This document shows, piece by piece, positions 9,433 to 27,874 of a stretch of DNA of 31,106 bases (positions are counted from its first letter, which is position 1; each line of letters opens with the position of its first letter). The stretch covers positions 1 through 31,106 of IMG/VR virus record IMGVR_UViG_3300021424_003802, one strand, 5' to 3'. The notes beneath the pieces were generated by a model. That model saw nothing but the letters and a program-made list of their open reading frames with translations, was not told where the DNA came from and ran no database searches. This DNA is from a virus. Position numbers and translations under genes: made by a program.

Positions 9433-11271
9433 TTACCTCTTTCCGTATCTTAAATACATCATTGCACCTGTGGTTTCGTCTTCAACAATAATTGGTGCAT
9501 CTCTGTTATCTAGGGCATATTGTCGAATGTCTTCGCCGAGTGGACCAGCAACCATTGAACGCCAGTGTTGACCTTTGCGCCTTCCGAGAGTTGCTTTGTA
9601 ATAATCATTACTCGGAACTGTAAACACTGCTCGCCCACCAAACATCTTTGGTGGTGGTCGGCGTAGTGGTTCAGGAGATAAAAGCATATCGCGACCTGCA
9701 ATTCCTACATTTACTGCAGATTCCGCACCACTGATTCCTGCAGCACCCATTGAATTTGCTGGCGCATCCTCGTTCATCGACAACATTCTATCATATGCTG
9801 CAGCTGCCTTTTGTGCTTTGGCTTCTATCAAAATTTCTTCATTTAATTCATTAGCATCTGTATTTTTTACTAGTGAAAATTGAATAGTTTTTCTTGCACC
9901 AGAACCTTCATTTTCACTTGGAGAAGAATCTGTGTGTCCTTTTAGATAAAGAGTTTTAGATTTCTTTGCTTTATCGCGATAACCTTTTATAGTAAATCCA
10001 ATTCCATCGCCACTCTTTATGTCATAATATTGAGAATCTTTTGCATTATCGCCAAGACCATATCCAATTTCACTTGTTCGACTACCGTCTTTCTTTGATT
10101 TGATTATATTGTGCCTCATAATTCTCATTGATCCTTCTAAACGTGCAGGTGTGTTGGTGAGAGTGGCAATTAATTGTCTTCTAAGTTCATGGACTTCTGG
10201 TTTATGGTCATGTCCAGAAGAAAAAATCTCTCCCATATGTCTTGTGAATGATTGTGTAACTGAACGTTTATGATGTTTTTTTCTTGATTCTTGTAGATCT
10301 CTATACACTTCAGCCAATCTTTTTCGGTGTGCTGAACTATAACCAGCTTTTTTTAATTCTGCTTCTTTTCTAATATATTCTTTATTTGGTCGACCTTTTG
10401 CATCAGTTGGTTTTATCTTCCCATCAGCAATTTCTTGTGCATAACGTGCATGTCTCAATCCATGTTGTGTTATTCTTCCTGATGCGCTAAATCCCCTTTC
10501 ACCTAAAATAGATTTTAAAGCTGAAGCGTTTTTTTTGATTACTCTATGATGGTCTTTTTGCGCAGCATCTGATGCAGCCTCAGAATCAGAGAAAAACGAT
10601 CCTTTTTTACCAGTGATTTTTTCATAAAATTCATCAACTTTTTTGGATATTTGTCCAAGTCCTGGAGAAAATGCTTTTGTTTCTCCGCCAGACTTTAAAC
10701 TTACTCCAAAAAACCCACCACCTTCTTTTTTATGTCCATGTTGAACTACAATATCAGAATTATTTCCCTCTGCTGATGAATCTTTACCATTTGTTAATGT
10801 ATGAATATCTTTTGCATTTGCAGTGAAATGAACTTTTTGAATGTCTTTGATTCCTTGTTCATTCATATGGGCGATAATGCTTTTTGCAGCATATTGAGCA
10901 TGTGCAACATGTTCATCATAATCTTCTTGATTTAATTCAGAAGACAAATGATCATGCCATTCTTTTGCAGATTTATTACTTGATTCATCTCTAAATTGCT
11001 CCATATGAGCAATATTTGCAATATTAACTTTTTTGTTTTTAGTTCTTTCTAGATTTGAAATTGCTTCTAAAGCAGCTTTGTGTGCTTCATCATGACCATT
11101 TTTCTTATTCGCTTGGTACACTTTCGCATAATGATTAATTAATCCACCAGTGAGAACCTCATGCATCTTACCAGCATTTGCTCTATTTAATCCCCATTCA
11201 GTATCTGCAGACTCTGATAGGAATTTAATCGTTTCAACAATATTTTTGAGTATTTGTGTACTGTATGACAT
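9433..11271 (-). CDS. 612-aa phage protein with possible PD-(D/E)XK nuclease core
   Basis: No firm family name. The N-terminal half has MHEVLTGG (Glu38), then NNSDIVVQHG (Asp173) and, after a short gap, FFGVSLKSGG (Lys193). An early Glu, then D-I-V-V, then a strand ending S-x-K resembles PD-(D/E)XK restriction-type nucleases that use SxK. The middle is Lys/Arg-rich and helical. The last 70 residues (FGGRAVFTVPSNDYYKATLG ... DETTGAMMYLR) form a separate small domain I recall from other marine phage structural proteins. It lies between the lysis cassette and a block of virion-like genes, so it may be packaged. Nuclease activity is a hypothesis only; the annotation could equally be a structural protein. 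Confidence 0.5.
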   Translation of the reverse strand: MSYSTQILKNIVETIKFLSESADTEWGLNRANAGKMHEVLTGGLINHYAKVYQANKKNGHDEAHKAALEAISNLERTKNKKVNIANIAHMEQFRDESSNKSAKEWHDHLSSELNQEDYDEHVAHAQYAAKSIIAHMNEQGIKDIQKVHFTANAKDIHTLTNGKDSSAEGNNSDIVVQHGHKKEGGGFFGVSLKSGGETKAFSPGLGQISKKVDEFYEKITGKKGSFFSDSEAASDAAQKDHHRVIKKNASALKSILGERGFSASGRITQHGLRHARYAQEIADGKIKPTDAKGRPNKEYIRKEAELKKAGYSSAHRKRLAEVYRDLQESRKKHHKRSVTQSFTRHMGEIFSSGHDHKPEVHELRRQLIATLTNTPARLEGSMRIMRHNIIKSKKDGSRTSEIGYGLGDNAKDSQYYDIKSGDGIGFTIKGYRDKAKKSKTLYLKGHTDSSPSENEGSGARKTIQFSLVKNTDANELNEEILIEAKAQKAAAAYDRMLSMNEDAPANSMGAAGISGAESAVNVGIAGRDMLLSPEPLRRPPPKMFGGRAVFTVPSNDYYKATLGRRKGQHWRSMVAGPLGEDIRQYALDNRDAPIIVEDETTGAMMYLRYGKR

Positions 11272-11674: not shown

Positions 11675-12154
11675 TCAATATTCGCCAGTATTACCTGAAT
11701 CGTAGTCCATCTTTTTCTGATAATTTTTATTATAATCATTCATATCATCATCATAATCATCATCAATTTCTTTCGCATCATCCATATCATCTGAGTCCAT
11801 CAATTGCTGTAATTCATCTTCATGTACAATCTGTGTATATGCATCTACTTGTGAATTTTTTTGTGTATTATATACAACATAAAGATATAGATCAGTTTCA
11901 CCAAGAGTAAATACTAATTCATTTTCAAATTTTAAAAATTGTTTAGTTGCTTCTGGAGGCATCAACATGCCAAATCGCTCCAATGTTCCACGAAGTTGAT
12001 TATAAAAAATAATTGAATTTTTATAAGGTGCATGTGTGAGGCGATCAAAATCAGCATTGATTGTTTCTTTGTTATTGTTTATCATGCTTGAGTCAACTTC
12101 AATATGCATTGAGTTGCCACGATCTTCATTTATAAATGTTTTAAAATTTAACAT
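11675..12154 (-). CDS. 159-aa protein with capsid-targeting-like N-terminus
   Basis: Not recognised by function. The first ten residues (MLNFKTFINE) match the pattern of the T4 capsid-targeting sequence (MKTYQEFIAE): ten residues, aromatics at 4 and 7, and I-x-E at the end, the cleavage signal of the T4-type prohead protease. The body has a small folded region (LRGTLERFGMLMPPEATKQF, ETDLYLYVVYNTQ). The C-terminal 40 residues are very acidic and Tyr/Asn-rich (DDYDDDMNDYNKNY). The start is well supported by AAGGAG. It precedes the conserved 129-aa gene. If the N-terminus is a true targeting signal, this is an internal head protein. Confidence 0.65.
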   Translation of the reverse strand: MLNFKTFINEDRGNSMHIEVDSSMINNNKETINADFDRLTHAPYKNSIIFYNQLRGTLERFGMLMPPEATKQFLKFENELVFTLGETDLYLYVVYNTQKNSQVDAYTQIVHEDELQQLMDSDDMDDAKEIDDDYDDDMNDYNKNYQKKMDYDSGNTGEY

Positions 12155-22700: not shown

Positions 22701-23692
22701 AATTCATGGGCAGCAGTATCTAAGGCATATTTCTTATCATGATTATAAACTTGATTAATCCATATTTTACTTTTACCAACTGTTTCTCCCTGGGTATATT
22801 TTCCTGCATAAGGTGCTGGATATTGCGAGACAACTCGAGTTTCAATATCTTTAAGTTCAGGAAATCTTTTAAATATCTCAGCATTTGGATTAAACACATC
22901 TGAAGCCTTTCCTGTTCGCGGAGTAAGTCCTCTGGCGGGGTCGAATAATGTTGTATCATCAGTTTCTTGCTTCAATTGACCCCATGGATTGCGATGAACT
23001 GCTCCACCTGGAGCTTTTCTTCCTGTTGCATCATAAATTTCTTCTGGAGATTTTCCTGCTTTTTCTAATGCTTTGTACATATCTTCGGCTTCTTTCGTAG
23101 CAGGAACAAATATTTGTCGCGCTTTACCAGCAACATTTGCCAGTCTTCCAATTGGAAGCATGGATGCTGCAGCCGATGCCATCGCTTTTTTATCACCTGA
23201 GCGTCTTGCTCTTTCAATATCACGCGCTGCAAGTGCTTGACCAACTACTGGAATAAAACCAAGACCTGTTTCAATTGCTGTTTGTTTGAGTGATGTATCT
23301 TTTTGTGGATCTAATGAAAAAAAGGATTTAAGGTCTTCCTTCATATAATCTTCAAATAATTTATTAATATCTTGATCATGCTCTACGTGATCGCCCATAT
23401 AACGACCTTCGCCGTATCCGCGACCGCTTGGATCTGCATTTGGATTGTGCAATCTCTCATGTTCACGACGAATTTTTGCTAATTTTTCTTGATACTCTGG
23501 TTTGTCAATTTGTTTTTGTTTTAATTTGCGTGCTCGATATCTTCCGAGAGTTCGTTGTGCATGTTTTGGTTGACCCAATTTCCTTGCTGCAGCAGCTGGA
23601 CTTTGACTATAAGTTGCATTAATGTATTTGTTATATGTTTCAATATCTAATTCATTAATTTGTACAACGTCTTTTTGTAAATCTTTATTCAT
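19745..23692 (-). CDS. 1315-aa polyvalent virion-like protein with HELQH metallopeptidase motif
   Basis: Very large modular protein. Residues 20-85 are basic and helical. Residues 280-395 contain TAAHELQHAVQHATGG (zinc ligands His329 and His333, catalytic Glu330) and, downstream, NPAEIEAR (Glu377 or Glu379 as third ligand), the order seen in zincin domains of phage polyvalent proteins. A Pro/Ala linker (431-455), LVGTDEYRDYALAMTPGQ (489-506) and an acidic run (576-597) follow. Two related hydrophobic modules (about 820-892 and 1015-1088) each end in YHNDNNISL. The C-terminus has a Cys cluster (CGTPNCCGDC, 1158-1167) and a small domain with KGKGIGKPFRSRGGGAVYVK and ARHNC...YWACRWPRFF. Likely packaged and ejected with DNA. 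The start overlaps the preceding stop by 8 bases. Confidence 0.7.
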   Translation of the reverse strand: MNKDLQKDVVQINELDIETYNKYINATYSQSPAAAARKLGQPKHAQRTLGRYRARKLKQKQIDKPEYQEKLAKIRREHERLHNPNADPSGRGYGEGRYMGDHVEHDQDINKLFEDYMKEDLKSFFSLDPQKDTSLKQTAIETGLGFIPVVGQALAARDIERARRSGDKKAMASAAASMLPIGRLANVAGKARQIFVPATKEAEDMYKALEKAGKSPEEIYDATGRKAPGGAVHRNPWGQLKQETDDTTLFDPARGLTPRTGKASDVFNPNAEIFKRFPELKDIETRVVSQYPAPYAGKYTQGETVGKSKIWINQVYNHDKKYALDTAAHELQHAVQHATGGRETNANLIRAARDARDGFINSRQTAAQQRYYRNPAEIEARAAGARAHLTRAQKDADLPQYTLPDGSRVVAAPSISSILSKYFPRKPVEATPRPAPAPAPAKPAPAPAPAPAPLPIKARGSGYDVDPPQPARPVRFTAESTEDLNEMQLVGTDEYRDYALAMTPGQDQEIQDAFPPEVYGTNVYEPETEQETTSSEPIGSAESGDSAIAGNSFRSIRKKFQEQSEEEKAMLLAQQSEEDDEEDEEEEEQGENDGAEDGVDFTPNLKTTKVRRYVPQNYTGNAVSGFPVLGISEGDVVPVDFASAAKLRKHPAYDPNKPIERDASGKVWQKVDLGKNKFENQKPFAGMNPLMKDGQQIGWTTSKSGEMASFLDGKTQAPPRAPRPVILGPDGKEYNTIGSRLNVQRRELEQIVLDHNKKLAERQAAESSARELAKAELLKQQAAELAAKNARLTIIKSVLKRVPLVGAALGAALSIPSSVSRAKEGDYLGATGELASGIASIFPGTGTAASTAIDASLLARDIQKQRANLKESTLDEAVNYHNDNNISLAEGLLDMFKKTNKQTAPPKPPARRVPGPHDPSAVTPSRTTNILRNVGRNTSRISTGTAIAGAGAKAATGDYAGASIDAAVQAGQSAAAKLATKKATELTAQFLSKAAARKLPVGFGLAATGAGVADRLRSRDYLGAAGEGLSGVAGLFPLAGTTISAGIDAALLGRDLKNLRAQTQQKEKPTLSEAVDYHNDNNISLIENIFRPGSDMFFAMILEAKRLYAEGLYEPRDESEQDLLESDIGEIGEYNGEAVLLDFPFETADELNLNHTNCGTPNCCGDCDQIEEEQILEAGPGLWANIRAKRERIKRGSGERMRKPGEKGAPTRKQIQSAKNEEVEIFEESDPTKGKGIGKPFRSRGGGAVYVKNEKGNVIKVNFSQSGMRKRLNEPARVKSFIARHNCYGNKDRTSASYWACRWPRFFSNTGQQWW
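20438..20464 (-). repeat. 27-bp direct repeat, copy 1
   Basis: Identical to 21029-21055. It encodes the YHNDNNISL end of the second hydrophobic module of the 1315-aa protein. The 591-base offset equals 197 codons. Confidence 0.85.
21029..21055 (-). repeat. 27-bp direct repeat, copy 2
   Basis: Identical to 20438-20464. It encodes YHNDNNISL at the end of the first hydrophobic module. Protein flanks are similar but diverged, so the perfect match suggests conversion or a constraint on the DNA. Confidence 0.85.
22629..22676 (-). repeat. 48-bp segment shared with the 889-aa gene (copy 2)
   Basis: Matches 19118-19165 at 47 of 48 bases. Here it encodes GGRETNANLIRAARDA, directly after the HELQH motif of the metallopeptidase domain, where a Gly-Gly segment is expected in this fold. 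This is probably the original site. Confidence 0.85.
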
Positions 23693-25304
23693 TATTATTC
23701 TCGTTATAGTTTCCTGTTAAATACCAGCGCTGTGATGCTGGGTGTTTTATCACCTCCCAAAATATATTATTATCAGAGTACATTGCTTTATTTTCAGAAA
23801 TTAATCGTAATTTATTTACTGGTATTGAGAGTAAATTTGTAATTTGTTTTGTTGTATCAATCAAACTCTTTAAATTATATGACTCACTTATTGTTTGCAT
23901 ATTTTTTATTTGTCTGCGCTTTTCCATGACCTTTGTGTAGTTTCCGCCACGAGCTTTGCGATTTCTTCTTGGATCGATTTTTGGTGGAATCGGTGCATTA
24001 AAATTAATTCCCTCAGCCATTGCTTTACGAATTGCTAAAGTGTGTTTACTTGGAGTTGTCTTTGATTCAGCATCTCCTGGAGCAGGTTCATATGCTCTTG
24101 GATCGCTGTCTGAAAGTTTTGCTTTTTCTTTCCAGTGAGCAGCACGAGCCTTTGCTGTATCTTTATCAAGACCAGCAACGTATTTTTTTGGTAAACCTGT
24201 GTCTTCGTCTTTGTCAATTTTTGGAAATTTCTTCTCGCGAAGAAACACAAATGATTTAAGAGCAGGTATTTCAACAGGCAAAATACCACTCTCTTGTATT
24301 CGTTTTTCAAGATTTAATGTTTGATCTTCAAATAAAAGTTTTTCAAATACACTCGGTGAATGTATGTTCATTGAGTTATTAAACACAAATACGTTGTCAA
24401 GAGATTCAACTAATTTTTCAACAAAAAGAAACTTTTGAATACGTTTTGATTCATTTAATGGAACTTGACGCTGTTCATTTCTCAAACGACTAACTTTATT
24501 TGTAACTGATGTATAGATGTAATCAAAATTATAATTCTCATAAAGATGTTTTACTTTGTTGATTTTATCTAGATCAATTGGACCGTTTATTACGAGATTT
24601 TTATTTTGCTCAAATAACTCATGTGCTGTGCCATTTAAAACTTGATCGATCTGAACTTCCATTAAATCATATTTGGCAAATGTATTCTTCAACACATAAT
24701 CTTTGCCACTGCCTGGACCACCAATTAAGAAAAATGCAGTGGCTGATTCTTTAAGTGCAGCGAATGCAGATCTCAACTTATTATAGAGCATATTCGCAGT
24801 TTCTCTATGTTCTTCTGGGTATTGCTCGACGAATTTATCGCGATTGCCAGCTTTAACTAACTCACGCATTTTAGTTCCTGACATTCCTTCTATGCCTTCT
24901 GTATTCGAGTCGCGTTCACCAGCAGAGGATGTTGTAATATTTTTAATTCCTGGATATTCTTTTTCTTTATATTTGTTTAAAAATTTAAATTTATTTTGAT
25001 CCTCTTCACCACCACCAACAATGTTTATATTTGTATGACCTTGCTCCTGTAGATATCGCATCATATCAATGGGTGTGCGAATTTCTGGATCACTTACAAT
25101 ATTTGCATCAGGAAACATTGCACGAAGTGCAGTAACCTTTGTTTCGTGATCAAGTGGATCACTCTCTGTTCCAGTTGTGTGTGTTGGAAAAATATAATGT
25201 TTTCCACTGGTATTTGCAGCATGATCGATAGTTGCCTGAATGGCAGCTCCGTGCCCAGGATGCGGTGGCTGTAATCGACCAATAAAGATTGATGCGTTGC
25301 TCAT
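23685..25304 (-). CDS. HxGH nucleotidyltransferase fused to P-loop kinase-like domain
   Basis: 539 residues. Residues 1-180 form a cytidylyltransferase-like (NMN/pantetheine adenylyltransferase superfamily) domain: FIGRLQPPHPGHGAAI with HPGH at 15-18, and MSGTKMRE (141-148) in place of the usual ISSTxIR. Residues 190-330 begin with a Walker A motif (GGPGSGKD, 195-202) and look kinase-like, an order that resembles NadR/NadM-type NMN adenylyltransferase plus ribosylnicotinamide kinase. Residues about 360-425 (KKYVAGLDKDTAKARAAHWK ... YEPAPGDAESKTTPSKHT) are a module I recall from other marine phage proteins. A basic C-terminal region follows. Possible role: NAD or nucleotide-cofactor metabolism early in infection. 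Substrates are not determined by the sequence. It overlaps the 1315-aa start by 8 bases. Confidence 0.75.
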   Translation of the reverse strand: MSNASIFIGRLQPPHPGHGAAIQATIDHAANTSGKHYIFPTHTTGTESDPLDHETKVTALRAMFPDANIVSDPEIRTPIDMMRYLQEQGHTNINIVGGGEEDQNKFKFLNKYKEKEYPGIKNITTSSAGERDSNTEGIEGMSGTKMRELVKAGNRDKFVEQYPEEHRETANMLYNKLRSAFAALKESATAFFLIGGPGSGKDYVLKNTFAKYDLMEVQIDQVLNGTAHELFEQNKNLVINGPIDLDKINKVKHLYENYNFDYIYTSVTNKVSRLRNEQRQVPLNESKRIQKFLFVEKLVESLDNVFVFNNSMNIHSPSVFEKLLFEDQTLNLEKRIQESGILPVEIPALKSFVFLREKKFPKIDKDEDTGLPKKYVAGLDKDTAKARAAHWKEKAKLSDSDPRAYEPAPGDAESKTTPSKHTLAIRKAMAEGINFNAPIPPKIDPRRNRKARGGNYTKVMEKRRQIKNMQTISESYNLKSLIDTTKQITNLLSIPVNKLRLISENKAMYSDNNIFWEVIKHPASQRWYLTGNYNENNNE

Positions 25305-25308
25305 ATTA

Positions 25309-26517
25309 TTATTTGCGTAGATCCTTATCAGCAGTGTGATATGTTTTACCCTTTCTTAGATAAGAATTCACACGTGCGTGTCCCCATTGCTGTGGTGTTG
25401 TACCTGGACGATGTCCAGAATTCCATGCAGCCATACCGCGTCTAAAAACTGTTTTAAGCGTGCTTAAAGAAACTCCAAATTTCTTTGCTTTCGCTGATAG
25501 CGAAAGTTTAGACTTTTCTTTTGCTTCCATTAATTGATCGCTGTGAGTGATGCTCTCATTAATCTTTTTTCGTAAATCTTTAAATGATATTTGCTCTGCC
25601 ACTTTTTTTATATTTCCTTTTCCCTTTGGTTTGTATCGTGCAGCTGCGGTCGCTCTTCGTTCAGCTGCACGTGCAGCTGCGATCGCCCTTCGTTCAGCTG
25701 TGGTCGCCCTTCGTCGTAAAACTTCTTCATATCTTTCACGGCTTTTTTGTTTTAATGGTGGAGAAGCACTATTTGTTTTCGATTGTACATTATCTAATGA
25801 TTGTCGAGTAGCATGAGCAGCAATCAATGCTTTAAAGTCTGGTGTGACTGCTTTAGGATTAAGATATTGTCGAAGCGTTTGAGTATCATAAATAACTAGT
25901 TGTTGTTGCTGTTGTTGTTGCTGTTGTTGTTGCTGTTGTTGAGTCATCTGTCTGTCTCTATCTGTAAGTTTTGGTGTTGCAGCTGCTGTGAAAAGTGATG
26001 CTGCAATAAATGGTGTTACTGATGCTGGTGGTGATGCTGGTGATATGTTGGATGCAACTAATGGACCACTAGAACCACCATAAAAATGATCATATGCACT
26101 CTGACCACCTTCCTTCTTAACCATTGCTCGTTGAATAGTATCAATATTTTTTGAATCTATTTGTTTATTTGGATCTAATCCTGATTTTGTAAATACATCA
26201 TCGATATATGCATTAGGATCGTTTGGATATTTTTTCCCAAGCGGCGTATTATCATCTTTTGGTGCATACTTATTAATCATTTGTGCACCTGTCATTCCCT
26301 TGCCAGCATCAATCCTAATTTGACGCTGCATGGCGTTCATACCAGCTTCTTGATCTGGAAAAATCGCAAATCCATGTTCATCAAATCCGATTGCGTTATC
26401 TAATACATATCCAGGTTGTGTTAAATATTGTTGCGTTTTAGCATCAACTGCGCGCAAATTACCTGGATTATTATTTCTAATTGAACGGACTTCGTTTAAT
26501 ATATTTTTATTTGGCAT
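25309..26517 (-). CDS. Lysozyme-like virion protein with polyQ tract and GHRPGTTPQQW domain
   Basis: 402 residues. Residues about 10-145 (IRNNNPGNLRAVD, GFAIFPDQEAGMNAMQRQI, MINKYAPKDDNTP, YIDDVF) match a lysozyme/transglycosylase-like domain common in phage virion proteins. A catalytic Glu is not obvious in this copy. A linker carries 14 consecutive Gln codons, then a basic Arg/Ala-rich helix (RRATTAERRAIAAARAAERR). The last 80 residues (FGVSLSTLKTVFRRGMAAWNSGHRPGTTPQQWGHARVNSY) match the domain I know as DUF5824 from marine viruses; that name is from memory. The start is 1 base after the ligase-like gene's stop with no clear ribosome site, so expression likely depends on coupling. Confidence 0.7.
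   Translation of the reverse strand: MPNKNILNEVRSIRNNNPGNLRAVDAKTQQYLTQPGYVLDNAIGFDEHGFAIFPDQEAGMNAMQRQIRIDAGKGMTGAQMINKYAPKDDNTPLGKKYPNDPNAYIDDVFTKSGLDPNKQIDSKNIDTIQRAMVKKEGGQSAYDHFYGGSSGPLVASNISPASPPASVTPFIAASLFTAAATPKLTDRDRQMTQQQQQQQQQQQQQQLVIYDTQTLRQYLNPKAVTPDFKALIAAHATRQSLDNVQSKTNSASPPLKQKSRERYEEVLRRRATTAERRAIAAARAAERRATAAARYKPKGKGNIKKVAEQISFKDLRKKINESITHSDQLMEAKEKSKLSLSAKAKKFGVSLSTLKTVFRRGMAAWNSGHRPGTTPQQWGHARVNSYLRKGKTYHTADKDLRK
25900..25941 (-). repeat. CAA/CAG polyglutamine repeat
   Basis: Fourteen Gln codons in a regular three CAA, one CAG order (plus strand TTGTTGTTGCTG). The 12-base periodicity indicates expansion of a 12-mer rather than of single codons. Confidence 0.9.
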
Positions 26518-26518
26518 T

Positions 26519-27874
26519 TTATTGTACCGTCTCTACTCGCTCTTCGCCAGATTGTTGCTGTGCTGCCTGTTGTTTCTGGAATCTACCACGATTAAAGTTT
26601 AGACGATTGAAATTTTCACGATCGTTTGCCTTTACAGCAATGTCATTACCAGTCATTGGATTCTTCATAACAATCACGTGACCTTCTTGCGAATTAACAA
26701 TCTCGCCAGTATCTGGATCAGAAATTGTACCTTGCATCAAATTTGTATTTTGTTGTGCATTCGCTTCAAATGCGGGCAGCATTGCTTTCTTGGCATTTGC
26801 AACTTCTTGATGAATGCGGAATGTTTGTCTCCATTTTACTGAATTCATATTGAAATCGTTTAGAGTATCATCACGTTGTTGTGTTAGACTTTGCGCCTTG
26901 GTTTGACTTTTCGCGCCTTCAATCTGACGATTAAATTTTTGTCCAACATGCTCAACAAAATTTTCATAAGTCAAAGGGAGTCCATCACGAATAGTTGCAT
27001 TAACGAAAGTTGAGAAGTGCGCCGCATGTGGAATAGCGTGTTGAAAATCATGTTTTTCGGCTAGTATTCTTACATTTTTAACAGCACGATCATATGCTGC
27101 TTGAGCATCAGTGCTGTAATTTTCTTGATTTGGTCGAGTTGCACGTGGATCAATTACATGCACATCTGGATGTGTTCCGAATGATCGTGTTGGAATATTG
27201 AATTCTCTTCGTGGGAAAGTCAACATCATTTGACCAGTTTTTGGATTTGGTTTCCAATATGCGTTACGATATCCTGTATGAATAGCAATACCAAATTGAG
27301 AATTTAAAATTCTCTGACCAATCCTAGAATTTGCTGGAGCTGAGTAATTAATTAATTGTGGATTTACAGCTACGTTAACATTACCTTCTTCATCTTGATT
27401 TTGTTGTACCATATCAGGCGTATGCATAAAATCGCCTTGGTATATTCCACGCATCGGAGCAATTTTAGGAAGATGCTCGAGTGCTGCCATTATTTTTGCA
27501 GCGAGTCCTGGTTTATCACCGTAATATTCCTGAACTTCTTCTGGAGTTGTGGCAAGTTTCTGCGTAGTTTTATTGAAAGCTGATTTAGAGGCAGCGAAAA
27601 ATGTGCCTGGAGCATATCCGCTATTCTTGGCGCCTTTGGTTGGTGTGCGACCAAAAACAACTGCAGGTGAACCATCATGTTTTACAGAAACACTTGCTTC
27701 TGATGCCTCACCCTTTAGATATTTGTGCATGTTGTCTAGGAAAGACAACGATAAATCTAATCCCTCTTTTCCATGAGGAATTAATAAGTCTTCAACGTGT
27801 TCTAGGTGTCCGCCGTTTAGATCTTCGTTCTCAAACTTTGCGGCTTCAGTGAGATATTGAACAAATCTTAACAT
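26519..27874 (-). CDS. Ligase-like nucleotidyltransferase (KxDG family) with capsid-targeting-like start
   Basis: 451 residues. HLEHVEDLLIPHGKEGL (23-39) and VSVKHDGSPAVVFG (62-75) contain K65-x-D-G, motif I of covalent nucleotidyltransferases (DNA/RNA ligases, capping enzymes), with Lys65 as the expected nucleotide acceptor. FFAASK (92-97) and MRGIYQGDFM (141-150) resemble the following ligase motifs, and QFGIAIHTGY comes later. I know this family as a DUF6267-type protein of marine T4-like phages. The first ten residues (MLRFVQYLTE) fit the T4 capsid-targeting pattern ending L-x-E, so it may be packaged and injected. A Gln-rich C-terminus ends the protein. The ribosome site is GGAAGAGG. Substrate (RNA, DNA or protein) is unknown. 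Confidence 0.75.
   Translation of the reverse strand: MLRFVQYLTEAAKFENEDLNGGHLEHVEDLLIPHGKEGLDLSLSFLDNMHKYLKGEASEASVSVKHDGSPAVVFGRTPTKGAKNSGYAPGTFFAASKSAFNKTTQKLATTPEEVQEYYGDKPGLAAKIMAALEHLPKIAPMRGIYQGDFMHTPDMVQQNQDEEGNVNVAVNPQLINYSAPANSRIGQRILNSQFGIAIHTGYRNAYWKPNPKTGQMMLTFPRREFNIPTRSFGTHPDVHVIDPRATRPNQENYSTDAQAAYDRAVKNVRILAEKHDFQHAIPHAAHFSTFVNATIRDGLPLTYENFVEHVGQKFNRQIEGAKSQTKAQSLTQQRDDTLNDFNMNSVKWRQTFRIHQEVANAKKAMLPAFEANAQQNTNLMQGTISDPDTGEIVNSQEGHVIVMKNPMTGNDIAVKANDRENFNRLNFNRGRFQKQQAAQQQSGEERVETVQ

Follow-up and report, generated by a model that had tools for sequence, protein, structure and literature searches.

DUF6267 of T4-like marine phages: a predicted ligase-like nucleotidyltransferase with a T4-type capsid targeting sequence

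The DUF6267 gene and its family

The viral fragment IMGVR_UViG_3300021424_003802 (31.1 kb; positions 1 to 31,106, the whole stretch analysed and hereafter termed the window) carries tail-fibre, endolysin and sugar genes together with a series of large unknown proteins. Here, we focus on one gene of the window, at 26519..27874 on the minus strand, which encodes a 451-residue protein of the DUF6267 family and is predicted to specify a covalent nucleotidyltransferase, ligase-like, that is packaged in the phage head. The open reading frame has an ATG start with a ribosome site, AAGAGG, immediately 5′ of it, and the protein begins MLRFVQYLTEAAKF. A profile search places it in Pfam family DUF6267 (PF19782) with 204.9 bits against a curated cut-off of 27 (E = 3.3e-60), and phrog_455 is matched at 5.9e-49; both families are annotated as function unknown. 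Relatives of 20–40% identity occur in 466–469 of 50,697 phage records (tblastn), almost all of them T4-like marine phages and the majority cyanophages, where short forms of 301–324 residues are found. A search of the literature returned no paper naming DUF6267.

Nucleotidyltransferase motifs and predicted fold

Covalent nucleotidyltransferases are characterized by motifs in a fixed order: I (KxDG), Ia, III, IV (EGxV) and V (K). In an alignment of 69 DUF6267 relatives, K65, D67, G68, K97, D148, E397, G398 and K415 are among the invariant residues, and these follow the order of motifs I, Ia, III, IV and V. The KHDG that a sequence-only reading had singled out as a nucleotidyltransferase motif is motif I (residues 65–68; 27671..27682, minus strand, as are all features of this gene) and contains the predicted catalytic Lys65. 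Downstream lie a motif Ia-like FFAASKSAF (residues 92–100; 27575..27601), in which F93 is invariant alongside K97, and a motif III-like GIYQGDF around Asp148 (residues 143–149; 27428..27448), in which Q146 and G147 are conserved in at least 90% of relatives. Motif IV is EGHVIV (residues 397–402; 26669..26686), where V400 is invariant in addition to E397 and G398, and the motif V region is IAVKAND (residues 412–418; 26621..26641), with Lys415. The folded domain starts at a conserved HLEHVED (residues 23–29; 27788..27808), in which H23 and H26 are invariant and E28 and D29 are found in at least 90% of the 69 relatives. Between motifs III and IV, the secondary structure of two models defines a helical insertion (residues 255–374; 26753..27112) that is far shorter in cyanophage forms. 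The catalytic-motif residues are still invariant in a second set of 43 relatives that includes the 301–324-residue cyanophage forms.

Comparison by sequence reaches no known enzyme: PDB searches with the window protein and with the family alignment gave only chance spidroin matches, and sequence comparisons matched no ligase profile significantly. Both AlphaFold2 models are of high confidence. The window protein is modelled with a predicted local distance difference test (pLDDT) score of 91.4 and a predicted template modelling (pTM) score of 0.88, residues 1–21 being disordered (pLDDT < 50), and a short relative with a pLDDT of 91.8 and a pTM of 0.85. For the long form, Foldseek places DNA ligase IV at ranks 1–3, with T4 RNA ligase 2 (Rnl2), DNA ligase III and vaccinia capping enzyme also high; in a viral structure library, RNA ligase 2 and DNA ligase are the first named matches outside the family. 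The short form has 114 PDB matches, of which the top 38 comprise nothing but DNA ligases, RNA ligases and capping enzymes; a Naegleria RNA ligase (6vt9) heads them, and the best E-value is only 0.041 with a probability of 0.72. RNA and DNA ligases rank above capping enzymes among the fold neighbours. DUF6267 is very likely a member of the covalent nucleotidyltransferase superfamily, sharing motifs I, III, IV and V and probably the core fold with 6vt9, T4 Rnl2 and DNA ligases III and IV; it differs from them in having no detectable sequence homology and no recognised OB domain, and in carrying the III–IV insertion and the conserved N-terminal HxxHxED.

A predicted N-terminal capsid targeting sequence

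In the capsid targeting sequence of T4 internal protein III (IPIII), packaging depends on residues 4 and 7, and residues 8 and 10 govern trimming by gp21, a protease that cleaves after L/I-x-E (PMC9026906). The first ten residues of the window protein, MLRFVQYLTE (27845..27874), had been likened to the T4 targeting peptide from the sequence alone, and the resemblance extends to all four determinants: F4, Y7, L8 and E10 are in the same register, and cleavage is predicted after Glu10, before Ala11. The likeness to T4 IPII and IPIII (MKTYQEFIAE) lies in a ten-residue N-terminus with aromatic residues at 4 and 7, L/I at 8, Glu10 and a small residue next; residues 2, 3, 5, 6 and 9 vary, and the cargo is a conserved predicted enzyme, whereas the internal proteins are small and basic.

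The tag was scored with a pattern, M.{1,3}[FYLW]..[FYLW][LIVM].E, that was fixed before the family was counted and that detects T4 IPII and IPIII as positive controls. It occurs in 68 of 94 distinct DUF6267 N-termini, 64 of them in the exact 4/7/8/10 register, against 0.34 expected from shuffling residues 2–25, the 94 sequences being related and not independent trials; at internal methionines in the same DNA it is found 8 times in 8983. In a tree built without the N-terminus, each of the two deep clades contains tagged proteins and the tag was gained or lost 11 times; the four determinants are kept in both clades while the linker varies. None of the short cyanophage forms is tagged. Phages whose DUF6267 carries the tag include Melnitz (host Methylophilales H5P1), DLP6 and C48C1.

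A T4-type (gp21-type) prohead protease, as in T4 itself, is encoded in all six DUF6267 genomes tested, the window being a fragment without head genes. The likely cleavage sites of gp23 in relatives (GLLTE-A, AVLTE-A and AFLSE-A; SFLTE-A in T4) resemble the end of the tag. In the cyanophage literature searched, the targeting sequence is not discussed, and both terms occur together only in a T4 review.

Tagged proteins of other families and their presence in virions

The tag pattern also opens about 70 further proteins encoded at the DUF6267 loci, which form 22 blastp clusters. These unrelated proteins include HIGH-type nucleotidyltransferases, kinases (among them an adenylate kinase, 1.9e-37), HAD-type phosphatases with a weak match to a polynucleotide-kinase PHROG, P-loop proteins and a protein resembling ADP-ribosyltransferases (ART).

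Several such enzymes are known from cyanophage virions. In S-CREM2, an S-adenosylmethionine (SAM) hydrolase, a kinase, a cytidylyltransferase and ORF13 are virion-associated (Table 3 of PMC10665884), and all four are tagged: MKDFDSFLEE, KRFDAFLTE (after a GTG start), MKNFSSFLTE and MKDLHSFLTE, respectively. The pattern matches five of the 217 genes of this phage, four of which are in the virion (p = 0.012). A Cas9-like virion protein of S-CREM2 has a shifted copy of the tag, FASFMAEAA. The S-CREM2 DUF6267 protein, ORF87, starts MNKATKPLTHIEHPED, is tag-less and is absent from the virion table (PMC10665884). In S-SZBM1, the tagged cytidylyltransferase (MRFRQFIIEA) is the sole enzyme in the virion, and the adjoining tag-less DUF6267 is not in the virion list (PMC9146016); enrichment of the tag in this virion alone is not significant (p = 0.35), and pooled enrichment across virion proteomes is modest (p = 0.007). 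The nicotinamide mononucleotide adenylyltransferase (NMNAT) of S-SCSM1 carries MKSFLQFLKEA and is in the virion. A kinase class is also reported in the S-CRM01 virion (PMC10665884); the S-CRM01 kinase carries MISFDQFLSE and its DUF6267 is tag-less. In S-CRM01, then, the kinase carries the tag and DUF6267 lacks it; in the window phage, DUF6267 carries it and the HIGH-type neighbour lacks it. The tag thus moves between DUF6267 and its partners.

These virion enzymes (cytidylyltransferase or NMNAT, SAM hydrolase, APH/ChoK kinase) share a targeting-like start with DUF6267, and the HIGH-type enzyme is its usual operon neighbour; they differ in that their folds are unrelated and that the DUF6267 proteins of S-CREM2 and S-SZBM1 are tag-less and undetected.

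Two further observations concern these phages. In the virion-detected, Cas9-annotated protein of S-CREM2 (OR473000.1:7704-10313, locus L149), the targeting-like LRFASFMAEAA lies near residues 17–27, and g128 of S-CRM01 begins in a similar way. The virion protein encoded upstream of the NMNAT in S-SCSM1, ORF90, was suspected to be a DUF6267 protein, and comparison showed otherwise.

Neighbouring genes

A gene for a HIGH-type nucleotidyltransferase lies within 6 kb downstream of DUF6267 in 42 of 52 loci, and in four (L088, L094, L107 and L114) the two are fused in one chain. In the window, the corresponding neighbour (23685..25304, minus strand; phrog_3041, 1.2e-37, and phrog_455) combines a HIGH-type, NMNAT/cytidylyltransferase-like domain with a P-loop, GGPGSGKD, and is without a targeting peptide. 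The profile of this neighbour weakly matches PPAT, RibF, NadR and NadM, which does not distinguish NAD from cytidyl chemistry. In cyanophages and in Melnitz, DUF6267 adjoins replication genes. Between the two window genes, 25309-26517 (minus strand) encodes a 402-residue protein whose N-terminus resembles endolysin/tape-measure proteins and which contains a poly-Gln tract; the DUF5824 module at its C-terminal end also matches the C-terminus of phrog_3041 cytidyltransferases.

Tagged proteins recur close to DUF6267 elsewhere. HAD-type phosphatases (FDIDDTLFHT) are encoded shortly upstream of it (L085:1661-2287, L116:9387-10001 and L059:1430-2053), and adenylate-kinase-like proteins directly 3′ (L132:11224-11799 and L129:1239-1823, the latter with an ADK match of 1.9e-37). 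Two tagged proteins with a YHGT motif (L069:8144-8680 and L099:6088-6624) are weakly similar to the ART/PARP group and are possible Alt-like delivered ADP-ribosyltransferases.

The tag pattern identifies one more gene in the window, encoding a 159-residue protein of unknown family (11675..12154, minus strand) that begins much like a capsid targeting sequence, MLNFKTFINE(D); a relative at L091:15801-16253 starts MQTFKQFLEEE. At 9433-11271 (minus strand), a 612-residue protein has KFLSESAD near its start, and an apparent relative (L067:8535-9998) begins MLNFSNFLLEEKLNKNQYGKLHEVLVGG; judged by these starts, this family may be packaged too.

Proposed role and alternative explanations

The explanation that best accounts for these findings jointly, and that we consider probable, is that DUF6267 is a divergent ligase-superfamily enzyme that is packaged by means of a T4-type tag, cut after Glu10 and delivered with the DNA, with an early role in repair. 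Its basis is the family, the invariant motifs, the fold neighbours, the conservation of the tag and the presence of the tag on unrelated proteins; from these, we infer packaging, cleavage, injection, adenylylation, ligation and substrate. The targeting sequence would load the protein into the prohead core, where the gp21-type protease of the phage would trim it, and the trimmed protein would stay in the mature head and enter the host with the DNA. After entry, the enzyme would become adenylylated on Lys65 at the expense of ATP or NAD+ and hand the AMP on to a 5′-phosphate end. Its most likely task would be to repair RNA or DNA during the initial minutes of an infection; arriving with the genome would be an advantage, as tRNA- and DNA-cutting host defences are quick to act. 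The enzyme would work alongside the HIGH-type nucleotidyltransferase, joined in relatives by kinases and phosphatases; the simplest reading would be a head-delivered set for nucleic-acid repair or nucleotide handling, with DUF6267 as its sealing enzyme. True end-joining activity, taken by itself, is on balance likely.

A more specific version, to which we give little credence, is that DUF6267 is an NAD+-dependent ligase whose NMNAT-like partner, often adjacent and sometimes fused, turns the released nicotinamide mononucleotide back to NAD+. This would fit the linkage of the two genes, and would make them a self-recharging, head-delivered repair unit that mends host-cut tRNA or phage DNA before phage genes are expressed.

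The earlier proposal of a packaged nucleic acid ligase or nucleotidylating enzyme is supported by the ligase motifs and fold, by the tag determinants, by the tag on unrelated neighbours and by tagged enzymes in cyanophage virions. Its choice of T4 Alt as the parallel does not hold, IPII and IPIII being closer. Like Alt, the DUF6267 protein would be a packaged, processed and delivered enzyme; Alt is an ADP-ribosyltransferase with a seven-residue propeptide (PMC9026906) and shows no homology to DUF6267. Alt-type ADP-ribosylation by DUF6267 was rejected: a Pfam search of the protein found DUF6267 only, and no ART domain.

Several observations weigh against the packaged-ligase explanation. While no loss of KxDG was seen among homologues, the tag with its L/I-x-E at residues 8–10 is missing in about 30% of the family, chiefly in cyanophage forms, which were not found in virions. 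The pattern also matches RecA-like proteins, probably by chance. The virion data concern tagged proteins other than DUF6267, and the shallow S-SZBM1 proteome detected one of three tagged proteins, missing two other small ones. Global TM-scores (template modelling scores) are low. No single Foldseek match in the PDB reaches an E-value of 0.001, owing to divergence and probably to the III–IV helical insertion. Comparison of the DUF6267 and T4 Rnl2 alignments with hhalign gives 0.4%, with block-shuffled decoys equally high, and sequence homology between the two is not claimed.

It is also conceivable, though we think it unlikely, that the nucleotidyltransferase fold has been retained for another chemistry or role, such as end capping, protein AMPylation or a catalytically idle nucleic-acid clamp. 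The long III–IV insertion, the lack of a recognised OB domain, the mRNA capping enzymes among the nearest folds and a HIGH-type partner that suggests nucleotide or NAD chemistry all fit such a role, whereas the invariance of every catalytic residue argues against a dead enzyme and capping enzymes rank below RNA and DNA ligases. Less probable still is that an enzyme of the ligase superfamily works late in the infected cell, its N-terminal peptide being generically amphipathic or serving head assembly only, with nothing delivered onward. The replication genes beside DUF6267 in cyanophages and Melnitz and the commonness of tag-less versions would suit this, and the authors of the S-CREM2 proteome themselves warn that detection may reflect incomplete purification, with carry-over in caesium chloride (CsCl) preparations (PMC10665884); yet all four T4 determinants persist in both deep clades over a varying linker, and unrelated enzymes carry the tag, which in S-CREM2 goes together with detection in the virion. 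It is highly improbable that the protein is an unrelated structural one in which the KxDG and the N-terminus arose by coincidence: no ligase profile is matched significantly by sequence, but the motif set is invariant and in superfamily order, the fold neighbours of the short model are exclusively of the ligase superfamily, and two libraries place ligases highest for the long model.

Significance

If the packaged-ligase explanation is true, a family present in several hundred phage records and called unknown by Pfam and PHROGs would gain a function, and a packaged nucleic-acid enzyme would be added to T4-like biology. The ten-residue rule, which is testable on existing mass-spectrometry data, would serve to predict what abundant marine phages carry in their heads, and the recurrent cytidylyltransferases and kinases in cyanophage virion proteomes would be explained.
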